This document shows positions 333-17,887 of a stretch of DNA of 64,000 bases, one piece after another (within the stretch, counting starts at the first letter, position 1; each line of letters starts with the position of its first letter). Origin of the DNA: Embleya scabrispora (GTDB lineage: Bacteria; Actinomycetota; Actinomycetes; Streptomycetales; Streptomycetaceae). The translations under genes were made by a program, and so were the position numbers. The stretch covers positions 1,178,001 to 1,242,000 of the forward strand of contig NZ_MWQN01000001.1 in the NCBI RefSeq assembly GCF_002024165.1. The letters run 5' to 3'. The notes under the pieces were generated by a model. The model was not told the DNA's origin. It searched no databases and was given only the letters and a program-made list of their open reading frames with translations.

Positions 333-1313
333 TCAGCCGCCGGGCAGGAGCACCACACGTCTGCCGTGCAACCGGCCCTGTTCCATCCGCCGATGCATCT
401 CGGCGGCGGCGCTCAGCGGTTGTTGCTCGAGCGTACGGGCCCGGAGTCGGCCGTTCGCCAGGAGGCGGTTGATCGTGCCCGCCGCCTCGGCGAGTTCGCC
501 GGACGTGGCATGCGAGATGACGAAGCCGGCGATCGAACAGTCCTTCATGTAGAGGCGGCGCACCGGCACCACCGGATCGGTGCCGGTCGCCGCCAGGACG
601 ACGACCCGGCCGCGCGGGGCGAGCAGCTCGACCGCCTCGGTCAGGTCGTTGCGGCCGGAGCAGTCCAGGTGCACGTCGACTCCGCCGGGGCAGGCGGCGG
701 CGATCAGGTCGAGGAGCTTCGGGTCCCGGTAGTCGAAGGCCGCGTCGGCGCCCAGGGCCCGGCAGTGGTGGAGATCCGCGGCGGCGGCGGTGGCGATCAC
801 CCGGGCCCCGGCGTCGACGGCCAGGGTCACCATGGCGCTGCCGACGTTCCCGGCCGCGCCGAGCACCAGGACCGTGTCGCCGGCGGTGACCCGGCCGTGG
901 GTGAACAGGGCCAGATACGCGGTGGCGGCGGGATGTACCACGGCGACCGCCGCCGTCGGGTCGACACCCGCCGGGAGGGGGTAGAGCCGGTCGGCGGCCA
1001 CCACCGCCTGTTCGGCCGCCGCACCCGGCCGCCCGCCGTGGCCGAGGCTGTTGGCCCACACGAGATCGCCGACAGTGAAGCCCGGCGCACCCGGCCCGGC
1101 CGCTGCCACCGTGCCGACCAGGTCGCGGCTGATCACCAGCGGAAACCCGACGGGCGTGCGGAAGACCCCGGAACGAAGCAGGATGTCGACCGGGTTGACG
1201 GTGGTGCCGAGGACGTCCACCAGGACATCGGTCGGCCCCGGTGTGGGCGCCGGGAGTTCGCCGTAGCGGATGTTCTCCGCCGGTCCGAGCGAGTCGATGA
1301 AGGCTGCGCGCAT
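333..1313 (-). CDS. Medium-chain dehydrogenase/reductase, quinone-oxidoreductase-like
   Basis: This 326-aa zinc-independent MDR protein has an N-terminal GroES-like domain (about 1-125, with the TVNPVDILLR segment) followed by a Rossmann domain with the nucleotide loop GAAGNVG at 152-158. It lacks the structural and catalytic zinc ligands of alcohol dehydrogenases, so NADPH-dependent reduction of a quinone or enone is the likely chemistry. The ATG at 1313 is preceded by GAGAATTCGAG. The gene is convergent with the left-edge reductase and lies downstream of the pseudo-transposase in the same direction. Membership in the biosynthetic cluster is plausible but not shown. Confidence 0.8.
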   Translation of the reverse strand: MRAAFIDSLGPAENIRYGELPAPTPGPTDVLVDVLGTTVNPVDILLRSGVFRTPVGFPLVISRDLVGTVAAAGPGAPGFTVGDLVWANSLGHGGRPGAAAEQAVVAADRLYPLPAGVDPTAAVAVVHPAATAYLALFTHGRVTAGDTVLVLGAAGNVGSAMVTLAVDAGARVIATAAAADLHHCRALGADAAFDYRDPKLLDLIAAACPGGVDVHLDCSGRNDLTEAVELLAPRGRVVVLAATGTDPVVPVRRLYMKDCSIAGFVISHATSGELAEAAGTINRLLANGRLRARTLEQQPLSAAAEMHRRMEQGRLHGRRVVLLPGG

Positions 1314-1569: not shown

Positions 1570-2790
1570 TCAGGCGATGCTCAGCTTGTGCTCGGCGAGT
1601 TCGGTGACCGCGTGTGCGACCGAGGCGAGGGTGGCGTGTCGGTGCCAGCCCGCGAACGATCGTCCGGCGAAGTCCCGGATCCCCACCTGCTCGGCGCGCG
1701 GCATGCCCAGGCTTTCCACCCGCCGACTGAGCCGGATCAGGCGCAGCAGCGAGGCGTGGTCGGCGTTGGTCAGATCGGTCAGCCACAGCTCCGCCGGCCA
1801 TTGTCCGCCGATGCCGCCGACGCCGAGCAACAGGAAGTCCCCGATTCCGCTGCGGGAACGGCGCGTTCCGTCGGGGACGGCCGGCAGTCGGACCCGGACG
1901 GTGGCGACGAGTTCGGCGGCCTCGTCGGTGCCGGACGGAATGAGGAACATGCGCTTCCGGCCGACCTTGACGAGCCGTGCGATCCGGCTTGCCTGGAGGG
2001 GTTCGTCGCCCCACCCCGGTAAAGCCGGGTCGGCGGGGAGCAGCCAGGTGTCCTCGGCGACTTTGGATATGTGCGACACGCCCGCCGCACTCAGCTTCGA
2101 GACGACGCCGATGCCGTCCAGCCGCTCCGCATTCAACACCACCGGACAATCCGGTATTCGATGCCGCATGGCGGTTTCCAGATATGCCCGGACCATCGAA
2201 TCCTCCGGCGTGTCGTAGCCCGTCTCGGGCCCGGACGGGTCCCGTTCGCCCCGGCCGCGCGGCCTCGTGGGGGGCAGGTGCAGCCGCCAGTTGACCGGGC
2301 TCGCCGTGGTGGCGGACACCGCCCACACGCCGACCACCTGCTGCGCGGTCACCGCCTGTCCCCGCTCCCAGGAAAAGGTCCTGGCGACCCCGACGGAGTG
2401 GGTACCCGACTTCGGAATGATCATCGGCTGCAACACGCAGGCATGGGGGGACGTGTGCCGGGCGAGATAACGCCCGAGCGCCTCTCGCATCGGCTCCCAG
2501 TCCCACGTGGAGTCGTTGATGAAATGGTGCAGTCCCTGGTCGTTGACCTGCTTTCCGAGAAAGGCGGCGATATTCCGAACGGACTTCCGTCCCGGAGCAC
2601 CGAGCAATCCGCGGAGATACATGACACCTTTACGTCGTTGATCCGCCCTGGGCAGGGAGGCGAAAACAATCGGGGACACCTCGGCGACCAAACGATCGAG
2701 GGTCACCTTCCTGGCCGCCTCGGAATCCGGGCCACGGTCGGCGAACTTTGGCAGGCATGCATGATTCGGGCTGCCGTTGGCGAGCGCCAT
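1570..2790 (-). CDS. IS701-like transposase homologue, apparently catalytically inactive
   Basis: The 406-aa protein has the length and layout of IS701-family (DDE_5) transposases, including a clear HSVGVARTF block at about 131-139. The two family aspartates are missing: the usual Asp-Asp-Thr-Gly-Phe before HSVGVA reads QPMIIPKSGT (121-130), and the usual Ala-Asp-x-x-Tyr-Gly block reads LNAERLDGIG (219-228). The frame is intact and no terminal inverted repeats were seen. The ATG at 2790 has AGGAG 5 bp upstream; a GTG at 2796 is also in frame. An intact but active-site-free transposase next to a biosynthetic cluster suggests a domesticated DNA-binding protein. That role is inference. Confidence 0.7.
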   Translation of the reverse strand: MALANGSPNHACLPKFADRGPDSEAARKVTLDRLVAEVSPIVFASLPRADQRRKGVMYLRGLLGAPGRKSVRNIAAFLGKQVNDQGLHHFINDSTWDWEPMREALGRYLARHTSPHACVLQPMIIPKSGTHSVGVARTFSWERGQAVTAQQVVGVWAVSATTASPVNWRLHLPPTRPRGRGERDPSGPETGYDTPEDSMVRAYLETAMRHRIPDCPVVLNAERLDGIGVVSKLSAAGVSHISKVAEDTWLLPADPALPGWGDEPLQASRIARLVKVGRKRMFLIPSGTDEAAELVATVRVRLPAVPDGTRRSRSGIGDFLLLGVGGIGGQWPAELWLTDLTNADHASLLRLIRLSRRVESLGMPRAEQVGIRDFAGRSFAGWHRHATLASVAHAVTELAEHKLSIA

Positions 2791-3661: not shown

Positions 3662-5047
3662 TCAGTCCCGGGGGTCCGCGCGCAGGGACCGCTCGACCAG
3701 GTCGGCGGCGGCGCCGGTGTAGCCGGCCGGGTCGCAGAGCCGGGTCAGCTCGGCGGTGTCGAGATGCTCGGCCACTTCGGGCAGGCTCGCGAGGTGGTCG
3801 GCGAGCGGGCGGCCCAGCCGGTCGGCCGCCTCGACGGCGCGGGTGAGCAGCGCCGCGGCGGCAGGCTTGCCCAGGTGCGCGGCCAGCACGCCGGCGACCC
3901 GTTCGGCGACGATCGCGCCGCCGGTGAGAGCGAGATTGGCGCGCATGCGCTCGGGCCGCACGACCAGGCCCTCGGCCAACTCCACGGCGGTGTGTGCGGC
4001 GCCGCCGGTCAGCCGCAGGCACTCGCGCAGCGGTTGCCACTCCGCGTGCCAGGCACCACCCGAGCGCTCGTCCTCGGCGAGCATGCACTGGGTCAACACG
4101 GCGGCCTGCGCGGGTACTTGCAGCGCGGCGCTGCGGATCAGCGTGGCCAGTACCGGATTGCGCTTCTGCGGCATGGCCGAGGAGGCACCCCGCCCGGGCA
4201 CGTGCGGCTCGACCACCTCGCCGACCTCGGTCCGGGTCGACGACTGCACGTCGACCGCGAACTTGCCCAGGGCGCCGGCGGTATGCGCCCAGGCCGCGCC
4301 GACGTCGGCGATCGGCGTACGCAGCGCATGCCACGGCAACACCTGTACACACAGGCCGGTTTCCGCGGCGAACGCGGCCACCAGCCGCTCCGGGTCGGCG
4401 CCCGCCTCGACGTAGCCGGCCAGGGTGCCGGCCGCACCGCCGAGCGAGACCGGCAGCCCGTTCGACACCGAGGCCACCCGCCGATCGGCGTCCAGGACCA
4501 GCCGCCGCCAACCCGCGGCCTTGAGCCCGAACGTGGTCGGCACCGCGTGCAGCGCGAGCGTACGCCCGGCCACCGGCGTGTCGCGGTGGCGCCGGGCGAG
4601 GGCGCCCAGGGCCTCGGCCACCCGGGCCAGGTCCGCGCGCAGCAGCGTCGCCGCGCGCCGCGCCACCAGCATCGCGGCGGTGTCGAGGATGTCCTGACTG
4701 GTGGAACCCAGATGCACGTGGCGGGCGGCGTGCGGATCGATCGCGGACACCACCCGGGTCAGCGCCCGAACCAGGGCGACGACCGGATTGGCGCTCTCGC
4801 GCGCGTCCACCGCCAGGGCCCGCAGGTCGAACCGGTCGGCGTGCGCGGCGGACGTGATCACCTCGGCCGCCGAGGCCGGCACCAGCCCGAGCGCGGCCTG
4901 CGCCCGGGCCAACGCGGCCTCGGCGTCCAGCATCGCCTGCAACCACGCCGCGTCGCCGACCGCGGCCTCCACCGGCGTGCCCGCGCGCACCGGCGACAAC
5001 AACCCGGCGTCCACGTACGAAAGTCGCCCGGCCGCGGCGCCGGTCAC
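3662..5047 (-). CDS. Aspartase/fumarase-superfamily lyase, candidate nitrosuccinate lyase (CreD-like)
   Basis: 461 aa, the usual length for the superfamily. Three conserved regions are visible: GSTSQDILDTA (114-124), GRTLALHAVPTTFG (161-174) and the signature GASSAMPQKRNP (287-298) with the mobile-loop serine. By sequence alone it would be called 3-carboxy-cis,cis-muconate cycloisomerase or adenylosuccinate lyase, but no protocatechuate or purine genes are nearby. Its GTG start overlaps by 4 bp the stop of a large FAD monooxygenase gene. That pairing matches CreE/CreD of cremeomycin biosynthesis, where the lyase splits nitrosuccinate to nitrous acid and fumarate. The superfamily is certain; the CreD role is inferred from context. 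Confidence 0.72.
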   Translation of the reverse strand: MTGAAAGRLSYVDAGLLSPVRAGTPVEAAVGDAAWLQAMLDAEAALARAQAALGLVPASAAEVITSAAHADRFDLRALAVDARESANPVVALVRALTRVVSAIDPHAARHVHLGSTSQDILDTAAMLVARRAATLLRADLARVAEALGALARRHRDTPVAGRTLALHAVPTTFGLKAAGWRRLVLDADRRVASVSNGLPVSLGGAAGTLAGYVEAGADPERLVAAFAAETGLCVQVLPWHALRTPIADVGAAWAHTAGALGKFAVDVQSSTRTEVGEVVEPHVPGRGASSAMPQKRNPVLATLIRSAALQVPAQAAVLTQCMLAEDERSGGAWHAEWQPLRECLRLTGGAAHTAVELAEGLVVRPERMRANLALTGGAIVAERVAGVLAAHLGKPAAAALLTRAVEAADRLGRPLADHLASLPEVAEHLDTAELTRLCDPAGYTGAAADLVERSLRADPRD

Positions 5048-7029
5048 ACCACGACCTCGATGTGCTCGCCCTCGGTCGCCGCGTCGATCTCGACCCGGCT
5101 CGGGCCGAGCGCGAGCACCGCTCGCGCGATCGCGTCCGCGTCGGCGATGGTCACCGAGTCCACGCCGGGCCGGATCCCGGCCGCGGTGACCCAGTGCACC
5201 GCCTCGGTGGGCACGCCGTACGCGAAGCGCCTGGGGTGTGCCCGGCCGTGCGCGTCGATCACCCGGTACGGCCGTTCGGTCACCGCCAGCCCACCGGTCT
5301 CGTAGTCGTACTCGTCCTCGCCCGAACTCGGGATGCGAAAGGTCGTACACGACTCGGTGTGCAGCAGATGGCGCAGTAGCGGATCCGCGGTGCGCCGCAG
5401 GTCGGGTTCCGGCAACCGCGCCTCGATCAGGATCTGCGCCCGCACCGAGGGCCCGGGGACCGTGGTGGAGTCGGCGATGAAGGAGGGGGTGCGGGTGTCG
5501 ATCCGGATCCGGGTGTCCGGGCCGGTCAATTCGAGCACGCCGGCCTCGATCAACGCGATCATCTGCTCGATCCGTCGTGGTGGCGGGCCGATCGACAGGA
5601 ACGCGTTCAGGGGGGTGTACCAGCGCTCCAGCTCGTCGCGGTGCGACGCCCCGTCCAGGCCGCCCTGGTCGACCGCCAGGCGGACCTCGTTGCGCAGGTC
5701 GCGCAGGACGTCCAGGGCGGCCTTGAACGGCCCGCTGACGTTGCCCTGGCGGGCCTGGCGCACATCCTCGGTGAGATGTGCCAGGAGCCATGTGCGAAAC
5801 GCGTCCCGGTCGGCGAACTCCCGTCCCCGGAGCGGATCGGCGATCGTGTCCCAGCTCCAGCGATCCGCGAGCGCAATGCCCCGGTCGGCCAGGACGGTGT
5901 CACGCTCGGCCGGCCCGGCGGTCAGATACCGCTCGGCGAACTCGCCGCACTCGTCGCCCCGGCCGGCCCGCCGGAGCAGCGTCTCGTAGTAGACCGTCTC
6001 CACCTCGCGGGCGATCAGCGGCCACAGGTCCTGCTTGAAGGAGATCGGCGCGCCCCGGCGGGAGCGAGCACGCAGCCCGGCCACGTAGTGCGGGGTCAAC
6101 AGGCGCGGGAAGTAGCGGCCGTGCGCGCCCTTCTCGTTCTCGCCACGTGCCTGATAGGGCAGACCGCGCCGAGAACTGGCGTACAGAATCGGCTCGTTGC
6201 CGCTCGACCGGTACACCGTGCGGTCGTCGACCCGCTCGAACCGGCCGCCCCGGCCCAGGGTGAACAGCGCGAGGTAGTCGAAGAAGCACAGGCCCAGGCC
6301 GCGCAGCAGTACGGGCCGGCCGGGCGCGACGCCGTCGAGGTCGGCGTCGGCCGGGTTGGTCGGGGTGAGGTAGGTCAGGTGGTTGATCCGCGCCAGGCTG
6401 GCCGTGCGCTCCTCCCGGGGCGTGGGCCGCGCCGCCACGTGTCCCTGGGCGAGCACGACCGCGTCCAGGGAGTTCAGCCGGGTCCCGTTGGCCAGTCGCA
6501 CCCCCTGCGGCCCGCCGGGAAATCCGTGGGTGTCGGCCATGGCCACGGCGCGCGAGCGGTGCTCGCGGATCTCCACGTGCGCGGGCGCGCCGTCCCGGAT
6601 CCGCCGGAAGCAGTCGGCGAAGTACCAGCCGCACAGGGTCCGCGTGGGATAGTCGTTCGGCCCGAGCCGGCCCGCCTCGGCGAGCGTGGCCGGGTCGTAC
6701 CGGTCCGCCTCGACGCCTCCGGCCGCGTGCCGCAGTGCGAGGTCCGCGGCCCATTCGTACAGGCTCGGGCCCGGCTCGATCGGCCCGTCGATCCGCGACG
6801 CGGCGTCGGAGAAGACGGTGGTCTGCGAGGCGACCGTGTTGGTCAGCAGATGCCGCGACTGTTCCATCCGCCAGACCGCGCCGGCGCCGGGCGCGGCCGG
6901 GTCGACGACGTGCACGACCAGGCTCTCGTGCGTCGGCCGGGCACGTTCGTTGGCACACAGCCGCTCCAGCACGGACAGCCCACGAGGGCCGGTGCCGATG
7001 ATGGCGATCTCGTGTGGCGTGGTGTTCAC
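5044..7029 (-). CDS. FAD/NAD(P)-binding monooxygenase, candidate L-aspartate N-oxygenase (CreE-like)
   Basis: 661 aa. It starts with a dinucleotide-binding fold, IAIIGTGPRGLSVLERL at about 8-24, typical of the large NAD_binding_9 flavoprotein family. A second glycine-rich segment (VLLRGLGLCFFDY) lies in the middle. The family includes CreE/FzmM enzymes that oxidise the amino group of L-aspartate to nitrosuccinate with FAD, NADPH and oxygen. The GTG at 7029 overlaps the stop of the aminodeoxyisochorismate synthase (GTGA), and its stop overlaps the start of the lyase in the same way, so the three are probably translated together. The length and the adjacent lyase support a CreE-type role. Without an alignment it could be another large FAD oxygenase. 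Confidence 0.7.
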   Translation of the reverse strand: MNTTPHEIAIIGTGPRGLSVLERLCANERARPTHESLVVHVVDPAAPGAGAVWRMEQSRHLLTNTVASQTTVFSDAASRIDGPIEPGPSLYEWAADLALRHAAGGVEADRYDPATLAEAGRLGPNDYPTRTLCGWYFADCFRRIRDGAPAHVEIREHRSRAVAMADTHGFPGGPQGVRLANGTRLNSLDAVVLAQGHVAARPTPREERTASLARINHLTYLTPTNPADADLDGVAPGRPVLLRGLGLCFFDYLALFTLGRGGRFERVDDRTVYRSSGNEPILYASSRRGLPYQARGENEKGAHGRYFPRLLTPHYVAGLRARSRRGAPISFKQDLWPLIAREVETVYYETLLRRAGRGDECGEFAERYLTAGPAERDTVLADRGIALADRWSWDTIADPLRGREFADRDAFRTWLLAHLTEDVRQARQGNVSGPFKAALDVLRDLRNEVRLAVDQGGLDGASHRDELERWYTPLNAFLSIGPPPRRIEQMIALIEAGVLELTGPDTRIRIDTRTPSFIADSTTVPGPSVRAQILIEARLPEPDLRRTADPLLRHLLHTESCTTFRIPSSGEDEYDYETGGLAVTERPYRVIDAHGRAHPRRFAYGVPTEAVHWVTAAGIRPGVDSVTIADADAIARAVLALGPSRVEIDAATEGEHIEVVV

Positions 7030-8978
7030 GGATGCACCCCTTCCGCGCCCGGTGTCGACACGGTCGCGCGGTGTTGCCCGGCGTCGAGCACGTCGGCGAT
7101 CAACGTGCCCAGGATTCGGGCGCCGTCGCGGGTGAGCACCGACTCGGCGTGGAACTGCACGCCCGCGAAGTGTGGTCCGCGCAGCGCGTGTACCTCGTTG
7201 ACGCCGTCCTCGCGACAGATCTCCACCGGGCCGACGTCGGGCAGATACGCGCGGTCGAACGCGCTGCGGGCCACGAAACTGTTGTAGAACCCGACCCGTT
7301 CGGGGCGGCCGAACAGTTCGATGTTCTTTTGCACACCCTGATGCGGCGTCGCGCGCCGGCGCAGATCCAGGCCCAGTTGGTGGCTGAGCACCTGATGGCT
7401 CAGGCACACCGCGAGGAACGGAAGCCGCTCGGCCAGCAGTTGCTTGATGCCGTCGTGCAGGCGCACGATCCGCGGATCGCCGTGGTCCAGCGGATCGCCG
7501 GGTCCCGGGCCCATCACCACGAGGTCGTGATCGGCGAACGAGTACGGCTGGTCGTAGCCGCGCACGCTCACCCGCAGCCCGAGCGAGCGCAGTTGGTGTG
7601 CGATCATCGCGGTGAACGCGTCCTCGGCGTCGATCACCAGGACGTGCCTGCCGGCCAGGCTCGGGAACTCCCCCGCGTCGCTCCCGGGTCCGTCCAGCCA
7701 GAAGCGGGCCAGGTCGGTATTGCGCTCGCGCAGCGCGGCCCGTACCCGTGCGTGCCCGCCCAGGGAGCGCGCCGGCGCCGGCGCCGAACGCGGGGCGCCC
7801 AGCAGGCCGTTGGCCTTGACCCACGTCTCCGCCACCTCGGCGGCCGGTTGCGAATCGCGCACCAGCGTGGCGCCGACGGCGATGGCCATCCGCCCGGAGG
7901 CGTCGATGTCGGCGGTGCGGATCAGGATCGACGAGTCCAGCGTGTGTCGTCCGGCGCCGTCGCGGCCGAACAGCGCGAGCACCCCGGAGTAGTAGCCGCG
8001 GCCCTCCGGTTCGTACCGGGCGATCACCCGGGCGGCGCTCTCCACCGGACTGCCGGTGACCGTCGGCGCGAACAGCGTGGTGCGCAACACCTCGCGGATG
8101 TCGCGGTCGGTGCGCCCCTCGATGAAGTATTCGGTGTGCGCGAGCCGGGCCATCTCCTTGAGGAACGGGCCCACCACCCGCACGCCCCGGTCGCAGACCC
8201 GGGACATCATCTTGAGTTCCTCGTCCACGACCATGTACAGCTCGTAGGTCTCCTTGCGGTCGTGCAGGAAGTCCATGACGCCGGTCAGCGTGGGCCCGGA
8301 GGTGGGATACCGGTAGGTGCCGCTGATCGGATTCATCACCGCCACGCCCCGACGCAGGCTCAGGTGCAGTTCCGGGCTGGCGCCGACCAGGGTGCGGGCG
8401 CCGGTGTGCACCAGGAACGTCCAGTAGGCGCCGGATTCGTGCGCGAGCAGGCGGCGCAGGAACGCGGCGGCGGTAGCCGGGGTGTAGTCGGTGATGTCGG
8501 CGAGGAAGCGGCGCTTGAGCACGAAGTTCGCGCCCTCGCCGGCGCTGATCTCGTCGGTCAGCACGTCGGCGACCAACGCGGCGTAGGCGTCGTCGTCGAT
8601 GTCGAAGTGCCCGTCCGTCCAGTCGATCTCCGCGTCGGGCAGCCGGCCGAGCACGTCGGCGCGGGAGAGCGTGGCCTGCTCCCGGACGGTCAGCGTGACC
8701 AGTGGTGCGCCGTCGTCGGGCGCGGGCAGGCCGCGTTCGGCGAGTTGCCGGTACGGCAGCAGCGCCAGCACATCCGGGCCGGCCGGTCCCGACGGCGAGT
8801 CGGGGATGGGGATGTCGGCGACCCGCTCCACCACGCCGATGTCCCCGGTGAGGATCTCCACCCGGTCGCCGGCGGTGACCGTGGGGCGGTACAGCAGCGC
8901 GAACGGCGGCGGGTCGGCGGCCAGGACCCGTTCCAGCAGGGCCCGGGCCGAGTCCTCGGCCGGGGGTGTGCGGCTCAT
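7026..8978 (-). CDS. phzE: PhzE-like 2-amino-2-deoxyisochorismate synthase (fused TrpE-like and amidotransferase domains)
   Basis: 650 aa, with a chorismate-binding domain (to about residue 425) and a class I glutamine amidotransferase domain (about 455-640). The first has [19 protein letters not shown] and a [11 protein letters not shown] block. The second has the oxyanion strand MGPGPGDP, the nucleophile in [10 protein letters not shown], and the FHAESV His/Glu. The domain order and the CLSHQ nucleophile site are those of PhzE, which makes ADIC from chorismate and glutamine. The ATG at 8978 overlaps the isochorismatase stop. No PhzF, PhzB or PhzG is present, so ADIC goes to the aminobenzoate branch rather than to phenazines. 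Confidence 0.9.
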
Positions 8979-9676
8979 CTCGCCGCCCCGATCCTCGTCG
9001 CCCGGACCCCGGCGGGCGACGCGTCCTGCGCGGCCGGCACGAGCGGGCCGTCGTCGGTGCGCAGCCCGCGGGTGGTGGCGACCACCGCGCACTGGAGGGC
9101 GGCGTATTCGAGGGCGAGCGCGTGGTCCGCCGCGGAGAAGTCGGCGACCGCGTCGGCGACCAGGAAGGTGCGGATGTCGTTGGTGAACGCGTCCACGGCG
9201 GTCATCAACACCCCGACGTGCGCGTAGATCCCGCAGACGACGAGTTGATCGCGGCCGCACGCGCGCATGCGCTCCAGCAGGTCGGAGCGGAAGAAGGCGC
9301 TGTAGCGCCACTTGGTGAGCAGCCAGTCCTCCGGACGCGGGGCCAACTCGTCCACGATGGCCCGGTCCTCGGCGGACACGCGCATGCCCGGACCCCAGAA
9401 GTCCAGGAGCAGGCCGCGCTGTTCGGCGGTCATGGATCCCGGCTGGGCGGTGAACGCGACGGGCATCCCGAGGTGGGCGCAGCGTTCGCGCAACAGCACG
9501 ATGTTGTCGATCAGTTCGCGGCGCTGGGCGGCGGCGAACGGGCGCACGAAGTAGCGCTGCATGTCGTGCACGAGCAGGACCGCGCGGTCCGGATCCACCG
9601 TCCATCGGGCGGTGTTGGCCGGCAGATCGCTCTCGCCGGGCAGCGGATATGGGGCAATGTCCGGGATACCGGGCAT
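8975..9676 (-). CDS. phzD: PhzD-like isochorismatase (ADIC to trans-2,3-dihydro-3-hydroxyanthranilate)
   Basis: 233 aa, very PhzD-like from the first residues ([14 protein letters not shown]). Catalytic positions are in place: Asp38 in [10 protein letters not shown], Lys121 in [10 protein letters not shown], and the cis-peptide segment CGIYAHVGV (147-155). It hydrolyses the vinyl ether of 2-amino-2-deoxyisochorismate, releasing pyruvate and DHHA. The start chosen is the ATG at 9676, preceded by GAGAGGA; an in-frame extension to 9712 adds residues not seen in the family. It sits 13 bp after the SDR and overlaps the PhzE-like gene by 4 bp. Confidence 0.9.
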
Positions 9677-9689
9677 GATCGCTATCCTC

Positions 9690-10460
9690 TCAGGCGCCGA
9701 GCGTGGCGCCACCGTCGACCGTGAGCTCGTGCAGCGTGATGTGCCCGGCCTGGTCGGACAGCAGGAACAGCACCGCGGCGGCGACGTCCTCGGGCCGGGC
9801 GAGTTTGCCCAGCGGGATGCCGACGCGAAATGCGTCGGGGTCGCCCTCCAACGTGTGCCTGCGTCCGCTGTCGTCGTGCCACATCGACCACAACATCGGC
9901 GTGTCGGTCGACCCGGGCGCGACCACGTTGCAGCGGATGCCGTACCGGGCCACCTCCAGGCCGAGCGACTTGGTGAACATCGTGGCCGCGGCCTTGGAGG
10001 CGGCGTAGCCGGCCATCTTCGCGCGCGGGGTGCTGCCGCCGTTCGAGGACACCGTGACCAGCGCCCCCTCGCCGCGCGGCGCCATCCGGTCGACCACGGC
10101 GCGGGACATGTGGAACACCCCGCCGACGTTGACCGCGAACATGTCCGCCCAGTCGCGGTCGGACATCTCGCGGACCGGGCCGAGGCGCAACACGCCGGCC
10201 GCGTTGACCAGGAACCGCACCGGGCCCAGCTGCGCCTCGACCGCCGCCACGGTGGCCTCGACCTCGTCCGCGTCGGTGACGTCGGTGGGGAAGGCGGTCA
10301 CGGGCAGGCCCGCGGCGACCAGTTCCGCGACGTACTTGCGCAGCCGGTCCGCGTCCCGGTCCACCGCCGCCACCGCCGTGCCGCGCTCGGCGAGCGCGCG
10401 CACGACCGTGCCGCCGATCCCCCCGGCGGCGCCGGTGACCACCGCGACCTCGTTCGTCAT
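9690..10460 (-). CDS. EntA/DhbA-like SDR, predicted DHHA dehydrogenase (gives 3-hydroxyanthranilate)
   Basis: 256-aa classical short-chain dehydrogenase with the cofactor loop TGAAGGIG (9-16), NAAG, and the catalytic Ser plus YAASK. The serine neighbourhood ([15 protein letters not shown]) closely follows that of 2,3-dihydro-2,3-dihydroxybenzoate dehydrogenases. Next to PhzE/PhzD homologues, the expected substrate is the amino analogue, DHHA, oxidised with NAD+ to 3-hydroxyanthranilic acid. The same three-step route is known for benzoxazole antibiotics such as A33853 and caboxamycin. The ATG overlaps the DAHP synthase stop (ATGA). Confidence 0.85.
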
Positions 10461-11698
10461 GTCGATTGCCCTCCTGTCGCTTGGTGTGCCGGGCCCGACC
10501 CGGCCTCGGCCGCCGTCCACGCGTCGGGCGCGACCTCGGCGTCCCAGGCGGCCAGGACGAGCAGTGCCTGCTCCGCCGTCAGGCGCGGATCGCAGAAGCT
10601 GGTGTAGACCTCGCCCACCCGGTCGGCCTCCCACGTGTCGAACACGCACTCGGTGACCTGGTCCGGGGTGGTCTCCAGGTGCACGCCGCCCGGGTGTTCG
10701 CCGGCCTCGGCGAGCACCGCCCGAAACGCGGCGACCTCGCGGCGGAGCGTGCGCACGTAGCGCGTCTTGTAACCGCGGTCGGTCACCACGGTGTTGCCGT
10801 GCATCGGGTCGTTCAGCCACACCACCGGATGCCCGGCCGAGCGCACCGCGCGGACCAGGGCGGGCAGTCGCTCGGCGATGGTGTCCGCGCCCATCCGGAT
10901 GATCAGGGTGAGTCGGCCCGGCACCCGGTCCGGGTCCAACCGCAGGCACAGTTCGGTCAGTTCGGCCGGGTCGATGTCCGGGCCGACCTTGACCGCGACC
11001 GGGTTGACCACCTTCGCGAGCAGCGCCACGTGCGCGCCGTCGACCTGGCGGGTGCGCTCCCCGATCCACGGCCAGTGCGTCGAGGTCAGCAGCAGGTCGC
11101 CGGACTCGGTCCGGCGCACCAGGGGCAGTTCGTAGTCGAGGACCAGCGCCTCGTGGCTGGTCCACACCGGCACCCTCGGGTGGGCGGCCCGGTGCCGGTC
11201 CAGGTGTCCCATGATCTCGGAAGCGGCCAGATAACCGGTGACCAGGCGCAGCGGATCGGGCCGCCGCTCCTCCGCCACCGGTTTCGGGCCGTTGATCAAG
11301 TGACCTCGGTAGACCGGCAGTTCGACGCCGCCGACATACTCGGTCGGCCGGGATCGGGGCTTGGCGAACTGGCCCGCGATGCGTCCTACGCGCACGACCG
11401 GGCGCCGGCCGAGCCGTTCCATCGCGCCGGCGAGCAGGTCGAGGACGGCGATTCGGCGGGCGACATCGGCCTCGCCGCACTCGCCGGGATCCTCGGCGCA
11501 GTCGCCGGCCTGGATCAACTCCGCCGCGCCGGCGCTCACCTGCGCGAGGCCGCGGCGCAGCGTACGCACGTCGGTTTCGCCGACCAGGGCGGGGCGTCCC
11601 GCCAACGTTTGTCGAACACTGTGGATCTGGGCGTCGTCCTCCCAGTCCGGCTGTTGCGCGGCCGGGTGCCGCGGAATCGGCAGCAGGTCACTGGTCAA
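10457..11698 (-). CDS. phzC: Class II 3-deoxy-7-phosphoheptulonate (DAHP) synthase
   Basis: 413 aa, plant/actinobacterial type II DAHP synthase. Visible family blocks are QAGDCAED, VGRIAGQFAKPRS, LIIRMGAD, WLNDPMHGNT and HLETTPDQVTEC. It condenses PEP and erythrose 4-phosphate; pathway-dedicated copies commonly raise chorismate supply in aminobenzoate and phenazine clusters. The start is TTG at 11698, chosen because GGAG lies 6 bp upstream; a GTG at 11725 is also in frame. It is the first gene of the six-gene core operon and overlaps the SDR start. Confidence 0.9.
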   Translation of the reverse strand: MTSDLLPIPRHPAAQQPDWEDDAQIHSVRQTLAGRPALVGETDVRTLRRGLAQVSAGAAELIQAGDCAEDPGECGEADVARRIAVLDLLAGAMERLGRRPVVRVGRIAGQFAKPRSRPTEYVGGVELPVYRGHLINGPKPVAEERRPDPLRLVTGYLAASEIMGHLDRHRAAHPRVPVWTSHEALVLDYELPLVRRTESGDLLLTSTHWPWIGERTRQVDGAHVALLAKVVNPVAVKVGPDIDPAELTELCLRLDPDRVPGRLTLIIRMGADTIAERLPALVRAVRSAGHPVVWLNDPMHGNTVVTDRGYKTRYVRTLRREVAAFRAVLAEAGEHPGGVHLETTPDQVTECVFDTWEADRVGEVYTSFCDPRLTAEQALLVLAAWDAEVAPDAWTAAEAGSGPAHQATGGQST

Positions 11699-12041: not shown

Positions 12042-12437
12042 TCAGCTCGTGCCCGAGGGGTTGGAGATCACGTACCGCCAACAGCCGTCGGCCCCCCGCC
12101 GGGCGACATCGGTCGCGGTGCCCTCGATGTGCACGTGGACACCGTCCGGGCCGACCCCGTCGTGTACGTAGTCGTTGATCACCAGGGCGATGTCGCCGAC
12201 CACGTAGACGTTGCGCAGCGAGACGGCGATCGGGACGCGATGGCGCAGCACCGTCGGCAGCGCGGCCCGCCGCTGCGCGCCCTGTGTGGTGACCCCCGGC
12301 TCGCGCACGTGCATGCCCTCCGGTTCGAAAAGCTCCTGGAGCAGTTCGAGGTTCCGGTCGTTGAAGGCGCCCACGAAGGTGTGCAGGAGCTCGGCCGGCT
12401 CGGCGGGAAGGCGTACGTCGTTTCGAATGGCAGACAT
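12042..12437 (-). CDS. SnoaL/NTF2-like (DUF4440-type) small protein
   Basis: 131 aa with the alpha-plus-beta-barrel pattern of the NTF2 superfamily: an N-terminal helix ending in FVGAFNDRNLELLQELF, then strands with HVREPGVT and DGVGPDGVHVHIEGTATDVARR, ending in WRYVISNPSG. Such proteins act as small cyclases, isomerases or binding proteins and are frequent in biosynthetic clusters. It is shorter than PhzA/PhzB and does not resemble their active-site region. It starts divergently from the flavodoxin-like gene about 200 bp away, so the two may share a control region. Confidence 0.7.
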   Translation of the reverse strand: MSAIRNDVRLPAEPAELLHTFVGAFNDRNLELLQELFEPEGMHVREPGVTTQGAQRRAALPTVLRHRVPIAVSLRNVYVVGDIALVINDYVHDGVGPDGVHVHIEGTATDVARRGADGCWRYVISNPSGTS

Positions 12438-12637: not shown

Positions 12638-13306
12638 TTGACCAACATCTCCATCATCTTCCATTCGCGCAGCGGTAACATTTACCAGCTCGTCGAAAAG
12701 GCCGCGCAGACGGCTCGGGCCGCGGGCGCCGAGGTGCGCGTGCGCAAGGTGGCCGAGTTGCCCGATCCGATGATCCTGGACAAGCAGGCGTATCAGGATC
12801 TGGCGACCGCCACGGCGGACATCCCGGAGGCGGGCCTGGACGACCTGGTGTGGGCCGACGCGATCATGATCGGCACGCCGGTCCACTACGGACTGCCCGC
12901 GCCGCAGATCCTGAACTTCTTCGACCACACCGGACCGGTGGCCATTCCGGGCAAGTTGATGAACAAGGCGGTCTCGGCGTTCGCCTCCGGGTCGATGCCG
13001 CACGCCGGCCAACAGGCGACGATCCTGGCGCTGCACAACGCGTTCTGCCACTGGGGTTCGGTGATCGTCTCCAACGGTTCGGCCGCGGCGGTGCTGCACC
13101 AGCCCGGCAACGGCGCGCCGTACGGCACCGGCACCATCTCGCGGCACGAGGCGAACAGTGTCACCGACGACAACCTCGGCGCGATCGAGTACCAGACGCT
13201 GCGCACCCTCCAGGTCGCGGGCGCGCTCAAGCGCGGGCTCGAGCCGGAGCCGGGAATCACCCTGGTGAGCGAGGAGCGGCTGCGCAAATTCGGCCTCGAC
13301 ATCTGA
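12638..13306 (+). CDS. WrbA-like flavodoxin-fold NAD(P)H:quinone oxidoreductase
   Basis: 222 aa. The FMN phosphate loop is HSRSGNIYQL near the N-terminus; the body has MIGTPVHYGLPAPQI and FASGSMPHAGQQ, all typical of WrbA-type flavoproteins. The family does two-electron reduction of quinones. No ATG fits; TTG at 12638 is preceded by GGGAG at 9 bp and begins the conserved part, so it is taken as the start. A quinone reductase would suit a pathway with o-aminophenol, o-quinone or diazoquinone intermediates, for tailoring or self-protection. Confidence 0.8.
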   Translation: MTNISIIFHSRSGNIYQLVEKAAQTARAAGAEVRVRKVAELPDPMILDKQAYQDLATATADIPEAGLDDLVWADAIMIGTPVHYGLPAPQILNFFDHTGPVAIPGKLMNKAVSAFASGSMPHAGQQATILALHNAFCHWGSVIVSNGSAAAVLHQPGNGAPYGTGTISRHEANSVTDDNLGAIEYQTLRTLQVAGALKRGLEPEPGITLVSEERLRKFGLDI

Positions 13307-13365: not shown

Positions 13366-14166
13366 ATGACATTTCGCGACACCGCGTGGCCGGAGGGTAC
13401 GCCCTGCTGGGTGGAGGTCCGGGTCGGTGATCCCAAACACACGAGCGCGTTCTACGGAGCCCTGTTCGGGTGGGACTTCCTGGACCGGGGCGAGGAGTAC
13501 GACCATTACCTGACGGCGAGTCTGGACGGTCGCACGGTCGCCGACATCGGTCCCCGGTTCGGGGAGCCGGCGAACGCGCCGTCGGCGTGGCTCGTCTGCA
13601 TCGCGGTCGAGAGCGCCGACGCGGTGGCGGAACGGATCGTCCGGGCGGGCGGGACGCTGACGGTCGCGCCGACCGACGTCGGCACGCACGGCAGGTTCGC
13701 GGTGGCGGCCGACCCGGGCGGGGCGGTGTTCGGGATCTGGCAGGCGGACGAGTACTTCGGCGCCGAGGTCGCGGACGTACCCGGCGCGGCGGTATGGCAC
13801 CGGTGCCTGACCCGGGACTTCGGCGCGGCGCAGGCGTTCTATGTCGAGGTGTTCGGCTACACCGTCACGCCGGAGCCGTCCGGGTCGGGCGGACCGGACG
13901 GTGGCGGCCCGGACGCGGCGGCGGGCGTCGTGCTGCGGCTCGACGGCCGTCCCGTGGCCGGCCTCGCCCGGGCGGGTGCGGGAGCGGTGTCGCACTGGCT
14001 GGTCACCTTCGGGGTCGCCGAGTTGGCGACGGCGGTGGCGAAGGTGACCGCGTCGGGTGGTTCCGTCCTGACCGGCCCCTACGACACTTCACGCGGCCCG
14101 AGCGTCCTGGTCGCCGACGAGCAGGGCACCCCGTTCGAGGTGGTCGCGGTGAGCGCGGCGACCTGA
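13366..14166 (+). CDS. Two-domain VOC (glyoxalase/bleomycin-resistance fold) protein
   Basis: 266 aa with two VOC repeats. Each half has the pattern of a W/H-containing first strand, a DxxxxxAFY(G/V)xxFG helix and a closing DPxGxxFxxW or DEQGTPFEVV strand (about 12-125 and 137-264). The family covers antibiotic-binding resistance proteins and some metal-dependent lyases or isomerases. The ATG at 13366 has GAGGAA just upstream. It is probably transcribed with the flavodoxin-like gene (59-bp gap) and is followed by a strong hairpin terminator. A resistance or tailoring role is possible. Confidence 0.75.
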   Translation: MTFRDTAWPEGTPCWVEVRVGDPKHTSAFYGALFGWDFLDRGEEYDHYLTASLDGRTVADIGPRFGEPANAPSAWLVCIAVESADAVAERIVRAGGTLTVAPTDVGTHGRFAVAADPGGAVFGIWQADEYFGAEVADVPGAAVWHRCLTRDFGAAQAFYVEVFGYTVTPEPSGSGGPDGGGPDAAAGVVLRLDGRPVAGLARAGAGAVSHWLVTFGVAELATAVAKVTASGGSVLTGPYDTSRGPSVLVADEQGTPFEVVAVSAAT

Positions 14167-14786: not shown

Positions 14787-15587
14787 CTAGTCGAATGCGA
14801 TCTGCACCGTGCCGTCGGTGATCACCTTGACCGGCAGTCGGTCGAGCTTGATGCCGAACCACTTGTCGTACGCGGTCAACAACTCCTGCTCGTCGGTGAT
14901 CGTCACGCTCTCCCGTCGGTCGCCCTCGACCCGGCTGAACCGGTCCTCCTTGAGGGTGACCCGGCCGGTCTCGGTCGGCAGCGAGCAGAACAGGTTCTGC
15001 AGGAACGGCGAGTCGGGCGCGGTGCGATACCACCACAGCGTGGGCGCGAAGTCGGACAGCTCGCACGGCACGTCGTAGACCCGGTACAGCGCCGTGTCGT
15101 TCGCCACGACGTCGATGCCGCCGTCGTCGGCCCGCTCGATCCGGAACGCCCCGTTCGGGTCCTCCTGGACCGCGTCGGTGTCCAGGGACAGCGGGTACCT
15201 GCTGTTGCGACCGAAGCCGACGTCGACGAGCCATTCCCCGCCGTCGATCCGGACCTTGAGCGCGAGATGGCACAGCGGGGCGGTGAGATTGCCCTTGATC
15301 CACACCCGACCCGGCATTATCGAAACCTCATAGCCGAGGCTTTGCAACAGGAAGGAAAGTGCCGGATTCACTTCGTAGCAACCACCGCCCCGACGCTCGT
15401 GGACGACCTTCGCGACCACCCTTTCGTCCATCAGGATGTCTTCACCGAGGTGATAGCTCAAATTCTCGAAGGGAACCGCGAACAAATGCCTCCGGTTCAA
15501 CTCGCGCAGCGACTCCAGGTCGGCCCGCTCCGGCCGTTCCGCGGCGATGCGATCCAGGTATGCGGATACCATGGCGTCGTCGATCAC
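14787..15587 (-). CDS. Arylamine N-acetyltransferase family protein
   Basis: 266 aa, normal NAT length. The catalytic triad is visible: Cys70 in RRGGGCYEVN, His107 in PLCHLAL and Asp122 in WLVDVGFG. NATs transfer acyl groups from acyl-CoA to arylamines; in ansamycin pathways the same fold makes the closing amide bond on an aminobenzoate unit. In a cluster that should make 3-hydroxyanthranilate, it could acetylate the amine (protection) or form an amide in the product. The GTG at 15587 overlaps the stop of the amidohydrolase gene (GTGA). Confidence 0.88.
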   Translation of the reverse strand: MIDDAMVSAYLDRIAAERPERADLESLRELNRRHLFAVPFENLSYHLGEDILMDERVVAKVVHERRGGGCYEVNPALSFLLQSLGYEVSIMPGRVWIKGNLTAPLCHLALKVRIDGGEWLVDVGFGRNSRYPLSLDTDAVQEDPNGAFRIERADDGGIDVVANDTALYRVYDVPCELSDFAPTLWWYRTAPDSPFLQNLFCSLPTETGRVTLKEDRFSRVEGDRRESVTITDEQELLTAYDKWFGIKLDRLPVKVITDGTVQIAFD

Positions 15588-16600
15588 GTCAGCGATCCCC
15601 TTTCAGATTCCGAGTGGTCCGCGAATCGCGGGAAGAGTTCGGCCGCATTGCCCAACTGGATGCGGGTCAGCTCGTCCGGCGAGAACGCCCCGTGCTCGAC
15701 GATGAATCGGCCGTTCTCCGCGCTGAACGATTCCGGCATGAACGGGAAATCGGAGCCGACCAGGATCCGGTCCGGCCGGGCGAACGAGCGCACCGAGGCG
15801 AACGCGTGCGGATCGCCGATCATCGCGGTGTCCGAGTAGAGCCTTTGCAGGTAACCGATCGGATCCTCCGGGAGCCGCTCGGCGAGGTCGGAGACGATCA
15901 GCGGCCCGAGCGCCAGGCGTCCGGCGAAGTACGCCATGCCACCGCCGCCGTGGGACAGGATCAGCCGCAGGCCGGGGTGCCGCTCCAGCGTGCGGTTGTA
16001 CAGGAGCTGCGCGGTCAGCCGGACCGTCTCGAACGGGAACTCGCAGAGCGAGGCCGGGAGTCCGAAGGCGGGCTGGCCGGTGGACGGGGGCACCGTCGGG
16101 TGCACGAACATCGGCACCCGGCGGCGTGCCGCCTCGGCCAGGAACTCGTCGAGCGACGGGTCGCCGAGGTAGACCCCGTTGTAGTTGGTGATCAACCCGA
16201 CGCCGTCGAGGCCGAGCACGTCCTGGCAGTACTCCAACTCGGCCAGGGCCGCGTCCACGTGCGGCAGCGGCAACACCGCGAACGCGCCCAGTCGACCCGG
16301 ATGCCGGGACACCAGCTCGGCCATGAACTCGTTGATCCACCGGGCCAGATGGGCCCCGGTGTCCGCGTCCACCGCCGGCACCCCCGGCCAGATGTTGACC
16401 ACGGCCGCCCGGATTCCCTGCCGGTCCATCATGTCCAGGCTGGTTTCGATTTTCCACGCCGGTTTGTCGACGCCGGGCAACGTCGATGCGAACCCGAGTC
16501 TCCGCAGTTCCTCGACATAGAATTCGGGAACGATGTGGTGATGTACGTCGATGGCGTTCGACCAAGGCGTGCCCACGGCCACGGAAGCGCTTGTCCGCAT
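15584..16600 (-). CDS. Amidohydrolase-2 family decarboxylase-like protein (ACMSD / gamma-resorcylate decarboxylase type)
   Basis: 338 aa TIM-barrel metalloenzyme of the PF04909 type. Metal ligands are recognisable: IDVHHHIVP (17-24), MFVHPT (His168), LSHGGGG (His218) and VGSDFPF (Asp285). Relatives decarboxylate aromatic or dienyl acids such as aminocarboxymuconate semialdehyde, salicylates and resorcylates. Here a plausible job is removal of the carboxyl group from a 3-hydroxyanthranilate-derived intermediate to leave an o-aminophenol. The ATG at 16600 has AAGGAA upstream. It is the first gene of a two-gene minus-strand unit with the NAT and is divergent from the KAS III gene. Confidence 0.82.
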   Translation of the reverse strand: MRTSASVAVGTPWSNAIDVHHHIVPEFYVEELRRLGFASTLPGVDKPAWKIETSLDMMDRQGIRAAVVNIWPGVPAVDADTGAHLARWINEFMAELVSRHPGRLGAFAVLPLPHVDAALAELEYCQDVLGLDGVGLITNYNGVYLGDPSLDEFLAEAARRRVPMFVHPTVPPSTGQPAFGLPASLCEFPFETVRLTAQLLYNRTLERHPGLRLILSHGGGGMAYFAGRLALGPLIVSDLAERLPEDPIGYLQRLYSDTAMIGDPHAFASVRSFARPDRILVGSDFPFMPESFSAENGRFIVEHGAFSPDELTRIQLGNAAELFPRFADHSESERGSLT

Positions 16601-16864
16601 GAATTTCCTTCGTCCAGACGGTCCGGCACAGCAATACTCGACCCTACGTTCGGCATCGGGGAGTGTCGATGTGCCGGCGGGAAGTCTGTCACCTTCTGCG
16701 GACCGGTCGGTATCCGCGCCGCCGACCGAGATGACAGTTCCCGATGCATTGTCTGGAAATCCCGCGACACCGCTGCCAATCTTTCCGGGCAGAGCAGCCG
16801 CACCGGGCGTCGATCGGGTCGTCGGCCCGGATTGCTGTTCCGCGCCGACACGAGATGGGTGAAT

Positions 16865-17887
16865 ATGACTACGCACGCAGTCGGAGCACCGGGTGGGGAC
16901 GCGGTCGGGATCCTCGGTACCGGCTCCTACCTCCCCGGCGACGTGGTGACCAATACCGACGTCGGCACACCGGCCGGAGTGACCGACGAGTGGATCACCC
17001 GCAAGACCGGGATCCGCGAGCGCCGTTGGGCCAAGGCCGACGAAGCCACCTCGGACCTGGCGGTGATGGCCGCGCGAGCCGCCCTCGGCAATGCCGGCGT
17101 CCGGGCCGAACAGGTCTCGCTCGTGATCGTGGCGACGTCCACGCCGGACTCGCCGCAACCCCCCACCGCCGCCGCCGTCGCGGCCGAACTCGACGTCCCC
17201 GCGGGCACCCCCGCGTTCGACCTCAACGCCGTGTGCAGCGGCTTCGTCTTCGCGCTCACCACCGCGGAGCGGATGATCCGGGGCACCGGCGGCCACGCCG
17301 TGGTGATCGGCGCCGACATCTACTCGCGCACCCTCGACCCGAGCGATCACCGCACCGCGGTGCTGTTCGGCGACGGCGCGGGCGCGGTGGTGCTCGGCCC
17401 CGGCGCCGGTCGCGGGGTGCTGGCCACCCGACTGGCCACCTATCCGGCGGAGCGTCAGTTGATCCGGGTGCCCGCGGGCGGCTCCCGGATCCCGGCCTCG
17501 CCGGCGTCCCTCGACCAGGGACTGCACTACTTCCGGATGGACGGTCGGGCGGTGCGCGACTTCGTGGCCGAGCAGGTCGGCCCGCTGATCCGCGCGTTCC
17601 TGGCGGAGCACGCGCCGAACCCCGCGCGGCCGCCGCACTTCGTACCGCACCAGGCCAACGGCCGGATGATCGAGGCCCTCGCCGACGACCTCGGCTTCCC
17701 GATCGAGCGTACGCACACCACCGTGGAACGTTTCGGAAATACCGGCGCGGCGTCCATACCCATTTCCCTGGATGCCGCCGCCGACCGCCTCCGAGCCGGC
17801 GATTCGGTACTGCTCGCCGGTTTCGGCGGGGGTATGGCCGTCGGTCTGGCACTCGTCGAATGGGACGGGCCACGCGGCGCGGATTGA
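16865..17887 (+). CDS. 3-oxoacyl-ACP synthase III (KAS III / FabH family)
   Basis: 340 aa with the full Cys-His-Asn triad: Cys124 in LNAVCSGFVFA, His262 in VPHQANGRM and Asn292 in FGNTGAASIP. There is no PKS, ACP or other fatty-acid gene in the window. Stand-alone FabH homologues in natural-product clusters often catalyse unusual C-C, C-O or C-N acyl transfers, so an acyl-transfer step onto the aromatic unit is a reasonable guess. It begins a plus-strand unit with the SRPBCC protein, the AMP ligase and the flavin hydroxylase. The ATG at 16865 starts the conserved part; the long upstream open frame is antisense to the amidohydrolase. Confidence 0.88.
   Translation: MTTHAVGAPGGDAVGILGTGSYLPGDVVTNTDVGTPAGVTDEWITRKTGIRERRWAKADEATSDLAVMAARAALGNAGVRAEQVSLVIVATSTPDSPQPPTAAAVAAELDVPAGTPAFDLNAVCSGFVFALTTAERMIRGTGGHAVVIGADIYSRTLDPSDHRTAVLFGDGAGAVVLGPGAGRGVLATRLATYPAERQLIRVPAGGSRIPASPASLDQGLHYFRMDGRAVRDFVAEQVGPLIRAFLAEHAPNPARPPHFVPHQANGRMIEALADDLGFPIERTHTTVERFGNTGAASIPISLDAAADRLRAGDSVLLAGFGGGMAVGLALVEWDGPRGAD

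Follow-up and report, generated by a model that had tools for sequence, protein, structure and literature searches.

Predicted nybomycin gene cluster of Embleya scabrispora, with 3-hydroxyanthranilate genes coupled to a putative aspartate-to-nitrous-acid enzyme pair

The stretch of DNA analyzed here (the window) covers 64,000 nucleotides of Embleya scabrispora, positions 1,178,001 to 1,242,000 of contig NZ_MWQN01000001.1 (7,005,287 bases) in assembly GCF_002024165.1, a genome of 10,958,352 bases in 8 contigs. At 3662-11698 it carries a six-gene operon in which a sequence-only reading had recognized a 3-hydroxyanthranilate (3-HAA) gene set followed by two enzymes that looked able to release nitrous acid from L-aspartate. 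The layout is as that reading described it, with all six genes on the minus strand, four 4-bp overlaps, and one 13-bp gap, and Pfam backs the enzyme family claimed for each gene. The operon reads as follows.

10457-11698, minus strand: class II 3-deoxy-D-arabinoheptulosonate 7-phosphate (DAHP) synthase, nybF homolog (Pfam, weaker NCBIfam match)
9690-10460, minus strand: DhbA/EntA-like short-chain dehydrogenase/reductase (SDR), predicted to convert 2,3-dihydro-3-hydroxyanthranilate (DHHA) to 3-HAA (TIGR04316, 343 bits; cutoff, 300)
8975-9676, minus strand: PhzD-like isochorismatase, predicted to give DHHA, nybE homolog (Pfam and cluster comparison)
7026-8978, minus strand: PhzE-like 2-amino-2-deoxyisochorismate synthase (chorismate_bind and GATase), nybD homolog (Pfam, NCBIfam, and cluster comparison)
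5044-7029, minus strand: predicted L-aspartate N-hydroxylase/nitrosuccinate synthase of the CreE type, 661 amino acids, nybB homolog (PDB, residues, and tree)
3662-5047, minus strand: predicted nitrosuccinate lyase of the CreD type, nybA homolog (NF052556, PDB, and tree)

The start of the DAHP synthase is uncertain (TTG at 11698, with GTG at 11725 and ATG at 11896 as possible alternatives). Among the six proteins, the SDR and the lyase passed an NCBIfam cutoff, three gave weaker matches, and the flavin adenine dinucleotide (FAD) enzyme gave none. These family assignments support the prediction that the first four genes provide 3-HAA. The ratios of nonsynonymous to synonymous substitution (dN/dS) of the six genes, computed against Embleya hyalina, lie between 0.13 and 0.20.

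The FAD enzyme and the lyase look like a nitrous-acid generator acting on L-aspartate. The lyase scored 727 bits on the NCBIfam nitrosuccinate lyase model NF052556 (cutoff, 650); lyases of the aspartate-nitrosuccinate (ANS, i.e., CreE/CreD) pathway from the Streptomyces albus nyb cluster and from Streptomyces halstedii scored 721 and 750 bits, and two PcaB controls from pca operons, one of them of the window genome, failed with 510 and 564 bits. The PcaB model TIGR02426 was set aside as a discriminator because the window lyase lies too near its cutoff (353.6 versus 355.75), so that NF052556 decides. The best PDB match of the lyase was CreD (5xny). In a tree of 66 lyases, one branch (SH-aLRT, 100) separated 54 sequences from ANS contexts, including the window and the solved CreD, from 12 found in PcaB contexts; L225, counted among the 54, carries its ANS label by default, as no context gene lay in its stretch. 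This tree took, among the named ANS loci, only those with numbers divisible by 3, with near-copies dropped. Like the other trees, it was a quick IQ-TREE run (LG+G4) with SH-aLRT support only, and the CreE and ligase trees gave long-branch warnings.

The sole PDB match of the FAD enzyme was the L-aspartate N-hydroxylase 8cp2 (616 bits). Twelve of the 13 residues named for this enzyme in PMC10404684 were conserved in the window protein, the exception being Arg597, located at the tunnel entrance, which is replaced by alanine. Across 31 clusters selected for linkage of CreE to PhzE, a set that includes the window and its near-copy in E. hyalina, 11 of the 13 residues were identical throughout and Arg593 was present in 29; Arg13, Arg276, Asn413, Arg416, and Arg577 (8cp2 numbering) were conserved in all 31. 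Thus, with the lyase score, the lyase tree, and the retained Arg/Asn set of the aspartate pocket, the assignment passed the sequence-based test attached to it: the lyase did not fall into a PcaB clade, nor the flavoprotein outside CreE. A CreE paralog at 6.37 Mb (L016:8650-10620, about 40% identity, four copies in the genus) was rejected as a second nitrite enzyme because most residues of the pocket are gone (Arg13, 266, 276, 409, 412, Asn413, and Arg416), with Trp51, Asn62, Val571, Arg577, and Arg593 retained. The flavoenzyme itself was found in two of four Embleya genomes, the second being E. hyalina NBRC 13850 (97% identity).

By sequence comparison, the block at 333-30617 is the nybomycin (nyb) gene cluster, and the operon is its precursor half. 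Twenty-two nyb genes (nybA to nybW, with nybG outside the comparison) were matched in S. albus subsp. chlorinus NRRL B-24108 at about 59 to 87% protein identity, and the block was conserved in that strain, in Streptomyces sp. NRRL B-1347, and in E. hyalina, where the cluster is 89 to 100% identical to that of the window. The nyb cluster was cloned from NRRL B-24108 and its expression yielded nybomycin (PMC6265801); the protein lengths that we obtained from this strain (L170/L163) agree with Table 1 of that paper, e.g., NybA 475, NybB 669, NybC 325, NybD 638, NybK 266, and NybP 476. E. hyalina and Embleya australiensis are reported nybomycin producers (PMC13152386). All 24 cluster genes tested against E. 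hyalina had dN/dS of 0.36 or less, indicating purifying selection. Taken together, the cluster identity, the 3-HAA genes, and the CreE/CreD assignment are strongly supported by the sequence data. The remaining features of the cluster are listed below.

333-1313, minus strand: nybC homolog, MDR (medium-chain dehydrogenase/reductase)/PIG3-like NAD(P)H:quinone oxidoreductase, candidate reductase (family and cluster comparison)
1570-2790, minus strand: DDE_5 "transposase-like" gene, DDT motif lost, linked to the cluster (family, alignment, and dN/dS)
12042-12437, minus strand: nybJ homolog, SnoaL/DUF4440-like (family and cluster comparison)
12638-13306, plus strand: nybI homolog, WrbA/FMN_red quinone reductase (family and cluster comparison)
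13411-14166, plus strand: nybH homolog, vicinal oxygen chelate (VOC) protein (family and cluster comparison)
14787-15587, minus strand: nybK homolog, arylamine N-acetyltransferase (NAT), for which PMC6265801 proposes acetoacetyl transfer (family and cluster comparison)
15584-16582, minus strand: nybL homolog, read as a decarboxylase of the 2-amino-3-carboxymuconate-6-semialdehyde decarboxylase (ACMSD) type (PDB matches)
16832-17887, plus strand: nybM homolog, ketoacyl synthase III (KAS III)/acetoacetyl-coenzyme A synthase (family and cluster comparison)
17965-18504, plus strand: nybN homolog, SRPBCC protein of the putative shared nitrogen-installing module (family and cluster comparison)
18558-20144, plus strand: nybO homolog, ANL-superfamily ligase related to diazotases, candidate nitrite-activating enzyme (family, tree, and motifs)
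20141-21613, plus strand: nybP homolog, FAD monooxygenase nearest to 3-hydroxybenzoate 6-monooxygenase (400 bits, below the model cutoff of 459)
21694-22803, minus strand: nybQ homolog, no family named (cluster comparison)
23804-24532, minus strand: nybR homolog, NAD(P)-binding protein (family and cluster comparison)
24603-25367, minus strand: nybS homolog, S-adenosylmethionine methyltransferase (family and cluster comparison)
25459-26454, minus strand: isopenicillin N synthase (IPNS)-like 2-oxoglutarate (2OG)-Fe oxygenase, nybT/U homolog (family and cluster comparison)
26835-27842, minus strand: IPNS-like 2OG-Fe oxygenase, nybT/U homolog (family and cluster comparison)
27882-29381, minus strand: nybV homolog, major facilitator superfamily transporter (family and cluster comparison)
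29883-30617, plus strand: nybW homolog, TetR regulator, cluster edge (family and cluster comparison)

NybL is read as the pathway's decarboxylase because 25 of its 35 PDB matches were named decarboxylases, with ACMSD first; it had no NCBIfam match at 1e-20. The two 2OG oxygenases form a tandem pair, about 72% identical. No tblastn match to nybX, nybY, or nybZ was found at 1e-5 in the stretches of the window, E. hyalina, or NRRL B-1347, and the conserved cluster therefore ends at nybW. Deletion of nybWX is published to raise the nybomycin titer, so nybX is not required for the product; nybY and nybZ may help production. Past this edge, a terpene synthase gene (33668-34807) adjoins a flavoprotein and was found, among the stretches compared, only in E. 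hyalina. Immediately upstream of the window, consecutive minus-strand genes (L013:5295-14875) resemble another biosynthetic operon, one of them with a leuA-like start recognized by eye.

The gene order of the window mostly follows that of the nyb cluster of S. albus subsp. chlorinus (BGC0001965; as tabulated in PMC6265801), including the DDE homolog (66% identity) adjoining nybA, and the differences are few. Of the four genomes compared, only those of Embleya have the PhzE gene directly coupled to the CreE gene. In both Streptomyces strains the quinone-reductase gene nybC intervenes, sitting on the other strand between nybB and nybD; in the window it lies beyond the lyase. The nybH-I-J block is inverted in both Streptomyces clusters relative to the window, and the SDR, which is part of the operon in the window, has its 70% homolog in S. 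albus subsp. chlorinus about 9 kb past nybZ (L241:10028-10798), among unrelated genes.

The sequence-only reading knew of no characterized cluster combining DHHA-derived 3-HAA with the nitrous-acid pair. This did not hold, since the penzonemycin (pzm) cluster, published in 2022, carries the combination (PMC9323291), and the nyb and streptonigrin (stn) tables list it as well. We compared pzm through S. halstedii NRRL ISP-5068 (L166/L167), where gene lengths and order agree with the published table. It shares with the window the 3-HAA genes, CreD, CreE, a NybO-like ligase, the SRPBCC protein, the quinone reductase, and the DDE gene, but has two ligases, lacks the nyb-type set of NAT, KAS III, and 2OG oxygenase, and leads to a C-4 hydrazone. 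For stn and for MAB_0284c-0305 of Mycobacterium abscessus, the published tables (PMC11206028 and PMC6265801) list homologs of CreD, CreE, the ligase, the SRPBCC protein, and the quinone reductase, together with 3-HAA genes and a "transposase"; these tables show no acetoacetyl or oxazoline genes and label the pair as PcaB and a hydroxylase, not as a nitrite pathway. The cremeomycin system (CreE/CreD/CreM) has the nitrous-acid pair and the ANL ligase family in common with the window and differs in that its aromatic amine comes by another route and its product is a diazo compound. The synthase family for 3-amino-4-hydroxybenzoate, the cremeomycin type, was absent from the Pfam tables of the 26 window open reading frames (ORFs) scanned.

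The linkage of 3-HAA genes to CreE was counted in 391 genomes of the order, using the best 114 of a larger number of CreE matches and the best 96 PhzE matches. A listed CreE was found within 45 kb of 34 of these 96 PhzE genes (own excluded). Seen from CreE, 18 of the 20 best relatives were linked to PhzE, and the share dropped with rank, to 34 of 114. In the CreE tree, which included even-numbered loci and those with PhzE, with near-copies dropped, the window falls in a clade of 32 sequences (SH-aLRT, 97), 27 of them labeled as 3-HAA linked; three more (L074, L078, and L080) are on contigs equal in length to those of linked clusters, bringing the count to 30 of 32. Three linked CreE (L121, L140, and G323) lie outside this clade. 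Linkage of CreE to PhzE was the selection criterion for the 31 clusters, so within that set the two genes do not count as independent evidence. Two 3-HAA clusters with CreE, in Actinokineospora globicatena (L165) and Kutzneria buriramensis (L086), had no CreD in the fetched stretches. Another genome (G187; L173/L054) holds a nyb-like cluster with the 3-HAA and ANS core, two NATs, two KAS III, and an ACMSD-like gene, in a stretch with no nyb-type methyltransferase or 2OG oxygenase and with CreD in two pieces; it is possibly a nybomycin relative. A second SDR/PhzD-like locus of the window genome (L015, 5.93 Mb) was rejected as another such cluster, its gene order and first residues being those of a catechol siderophore set.

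Three further genes travel with CreE in the linked clusters. Within 11 kb of CreE, the 31 clusters encode an SRPBCC protein in 21 cases, an MDR reductase in 22, and a NybO-type ligase in 23. For comparison we used the best 80 of 87 named CreE loci. The 68 named loci with no PhzE in view, taken with about 10 kb on each side, carried these genes in 5, 5, and 7 cases, respectively, and the five with SRPBCC and reductase (L075, L077, L079, L081, and L089) are close relatives of linked loci. Without them the counts fell to 0, 0, and 4 of 63, after exclusion of 17 of the 80 loci for having PhzE in view, being on the contig of a linked cluster, or being close relatives. Because these three genes are shared with pzm of S. 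halstedii and, according to published tables, with stn, both of which lack acetoacetyl genes, a role for NybN as a pyridone cyclase alone is unlikely.

NybO groups with ligases linked to the ANS pathway and conserves a late lysine and the ATP motifs; as for the SRPBCC and DDE proteins, its alignment to outside references was read partly by eye. In the ligase tree, a NybO-type clade of 29 sequences (SH-aLRT, 100) is sister to a clade of 11 (SH-aLRT, 96). Two ligases of this family are present in 8 of the 31 clusters (L165, L166, G020, G058, G071, G164, G253b, and G372), seven of which have one from each sister clade; in the eighth, pzm of S. halstedii, both belong to the NybO-type clade. Pzm18 is 48% identical to CreM (PMC9323291). 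The nyb cluster has a single NybO-type ligase. The two-ligase clusters are candidates for two nitrite-using steps and N-N products, and the pattern suggests one ligase per nitrite-derived nitrogen and two for two, although it rests on very few products.

The DDE_5 gene beside the lyase (1570-2790) has a dN/dS of 0.04 against E. hyalina and 0.25 against NRRL B-1347, indicating purifying selection. In a by-eye alignment with an IS701-like ORF of the window genome that reads DDT, the first Asp was lost in all 22 cluster homologs and the second in 21 (G187 retains it); a later Asp was retained in most and is Asn in the four nyb copies. The window genome has no other close copy, its further matches being short pieces at 28 to 39%, and no exact inverted repeat of more than 10 bases was found between the gene flanks. 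Over 21 clusters, DDE_5 divergence follows that of CreE (Mantel r = 0.85, 0 of 2,000 permutations as high). A DDE relative was placed within 47 kb of 55 of the best 96 PhzE loci; conversely, 56 of 115 DDE relatives lie near such loci and about half elsewhere. This count uses the unpicked 96 PhzE matches, whereas an earlier one had 12 additional entries chosen by eye, some for a DDE match on the contig. A "transposase" gene also stands in the pzm, stn, and M. abscessus tables (PMC9323291 and PMC11206028), and that of the S. halstedii counterpart of pzm, the only one compared by sequence, belongs to the family of the window gene (41%). We read the gene as a retired transposase retained as a cluster protein with putative DNA-binding function.

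In the published structure of nybomycin, both nitrogens are ring atoms and they are not bonded to each other; a new diazo product is therefore unlikely from this cluster. We propose, at a probability of roughly 0.6 for the reading as a whole, that nitrous acid derived from aspartate supplies the second aryl nitrogen of nybomycin through C-nitrosation at C-4 of 3-HAA, followed by reduction; we infer all steps after the release of nitrous acid. DAHP synthase, PhzE, PhzD, and the SDR would lead through chorismate to 3-HAA, while the flavoenzyme would convert L-aspartate to nitrosuccinate, which the lyase would split to free nitrous acid. NybO would activate nitrite at the expense of ATP and, together with NybN, the SRPBCC protein, nitrosate 3-HAA at C-4, ortho to the hydroxyl. 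The quinone-reductase-like NybC or NybI could then reduce the nitroso product to 2,4-diamino-3-hydroxybenzoate, and decarboxylation by NybL would give 2,6-diaminophenol. The published late steps would follow, i.e., two acetoacetyl transfers, ring closure, N-methylation, and oxazoline formation, with the hydroxyl of 3-HAA ending as the oxazoline oxygen.

The substitution pattern of related products is consistent with this route. Streptonigrin has a C-7 amino group and a C-8 oxygen, in agreement with the same arrangement. Penzonemycin carries an acylated nitrogen at C-2, a hydroxyl at C-3, and the hydrazone nitrogen at C-4 (PMC9323291), and the 2,6-diaminophenol core proposed for nybomycin (PMC6265801) is this pattern minus the C-1 carboxyl. 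Labeled ([13C6]) anthranilate was not incorporated into nybomycin (PMC6965495), which fits a route through DHHA and 3-HAA. A wider proposal, which we hold tentatively and at somewhat under even odds, is that CreE, CreD, the NybO-type ligase, the SRPBCC protein, and the MDR reductase form a conserved module, recurring next to 3-HAA genes, through which nitrogen from aspartate would enter an aromatic C-N bond: ATP-dependent C-nitrosation of a phenol, then reduction. The module would be the common source of the C-4 nitrogen in nybomycin, streptonigrin, and penzonemycin and, to our knowledge, the first case in which the nitrous-acid pathway serves to make C-N and not N-N bonds. The second ligase of some clusters would then diazotize the new amine. 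A role of the pair in nitrogen supply looks new with respect to the 2018 assignment, in which nybA had no role, nybB the final hydroxylation, and nybL the supply of ammonia (PMC6265801). In the literature under Creative Commons (CC) licenses, with subscription journals uncovered, we found no paper linking nybomycin or streptonigrin to the nitrous-acid pathway.

Several observations weigh against the C-nitrosation route or its generality. The module does not occur in every linked cluster. At L121 and L140, PhzE adjoins CreE but there is no SRPBCC protein, reductase, or NybO-type ligase. Among the fetched stretches of the 31 clusters, 8 lacked the reductase, 5 the SDR, 4 the SRPBCC gene, and 2 the ligase; CreD was absent from 3 and fragmented in 1. 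The CreD active-site residues did not discriminate CreD from PcaB and were dropped as a test. A search of CC-licensed literature found no activity, knockout, or labeling data on nybA, nybB, or nybO. Moreover, characterized relatives of NybO form diazo, not C-nitroso, groups. In streptonigrin, an obligatory passage through 3-HAA does not fit the incorporation of 4-aminoanthranilate, which lacks the 3-hydroxyl and was isolated from the producer (PMC6265801). The S. albus nyb table of the same paper lists no DhbA-type SDR, and yet the bacterial artificial chromosome (BAC) 4N24 makes nybomycin. Finally, the C-4 nitrogen of penzonemycin is attributed to transamination in the proposal of its authors (PMC9323291). 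L121 and L140 appear as a different use of the same two precursors, and heterologous nybomycin strains may lack a DHHA dehydrogenase.

The transamination proposal, together with the ammonia supply that the 2018 authors attributed to NybL, speaks for a rather unlikely alternative: nybomycin is made, with its second amino group coming from transamination or ammonia, and nitrous acid acts only transiently (to diazotize an amine that the pathway afterwards loses or exchanges) or serves a side product. NybO being related to diazotases also speaks for it, as does the use of diazotization for nothing but amine removal in the ava and cma systems. However, Pfam found no aminotransferase among the 26 window ORFs scanned, NybL resembles a decarboxylase, and both nitrogens stay in nybomycin, which leaves a net deamination without an obvious place. 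The cluster may also be a nyb relative that is silent in this strain or diverted to a nybomycin analog, as the lack of nybX, nybY, and nybZ in the window would allow; this is improbable given the purifying selection on the 24 genes, and given that E. hyalina, a reported producer with a nearly identical set, likewise has no match to these three genes in the stretch searched.

More improbable still is that 3-HAA and nitrous acid combine into a new N-N compound such as an o-diazoquinone or a triazene. The sequence-only reading considered that the product may be a new diazo, triazene, nitroso, or nitro compound, for which the enzyme families are right, and pzm shows such chemistry on this core; the entire cluster nevertheless matches nyb, with one ligase rather than two and with the acetoacetyl, methyl, and dioxygenase genes all there. 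Least probable, and by a further small step, is the 2018 view of a PcaB-like lyase and a flavoenzyme that hydroxylates late in the pathway. The window lyase shares 55 to 59% identity and most catalytic residues with the PcaBs of its own genome and of S. halstedii, but the family scores, the tree, and the aspartate-pocket residues all point elsewhere, and the pair is also tabulated for stn and pzm, two clusters with products that lack the hydroxymethyl group of nybomycin.

Known as a "reverse antibiotic," nybomycin is active against quinolone-resistant Staphylococcus aureus, and its pathway has only been proposed. Because the BAC gene table shows no 3-HAA dehydrogenase, adding one may raise titers. 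If aspartate-derived nitrous acid is the source of the second nitrogen, the published roles of nybA, nybB, nybL, and nybN would change, it would become testable where nybomycin and streptonigrin obtain their second amino group, and a ligase family known for making diazo groups would gain carbon nitrosation as a further reaction.

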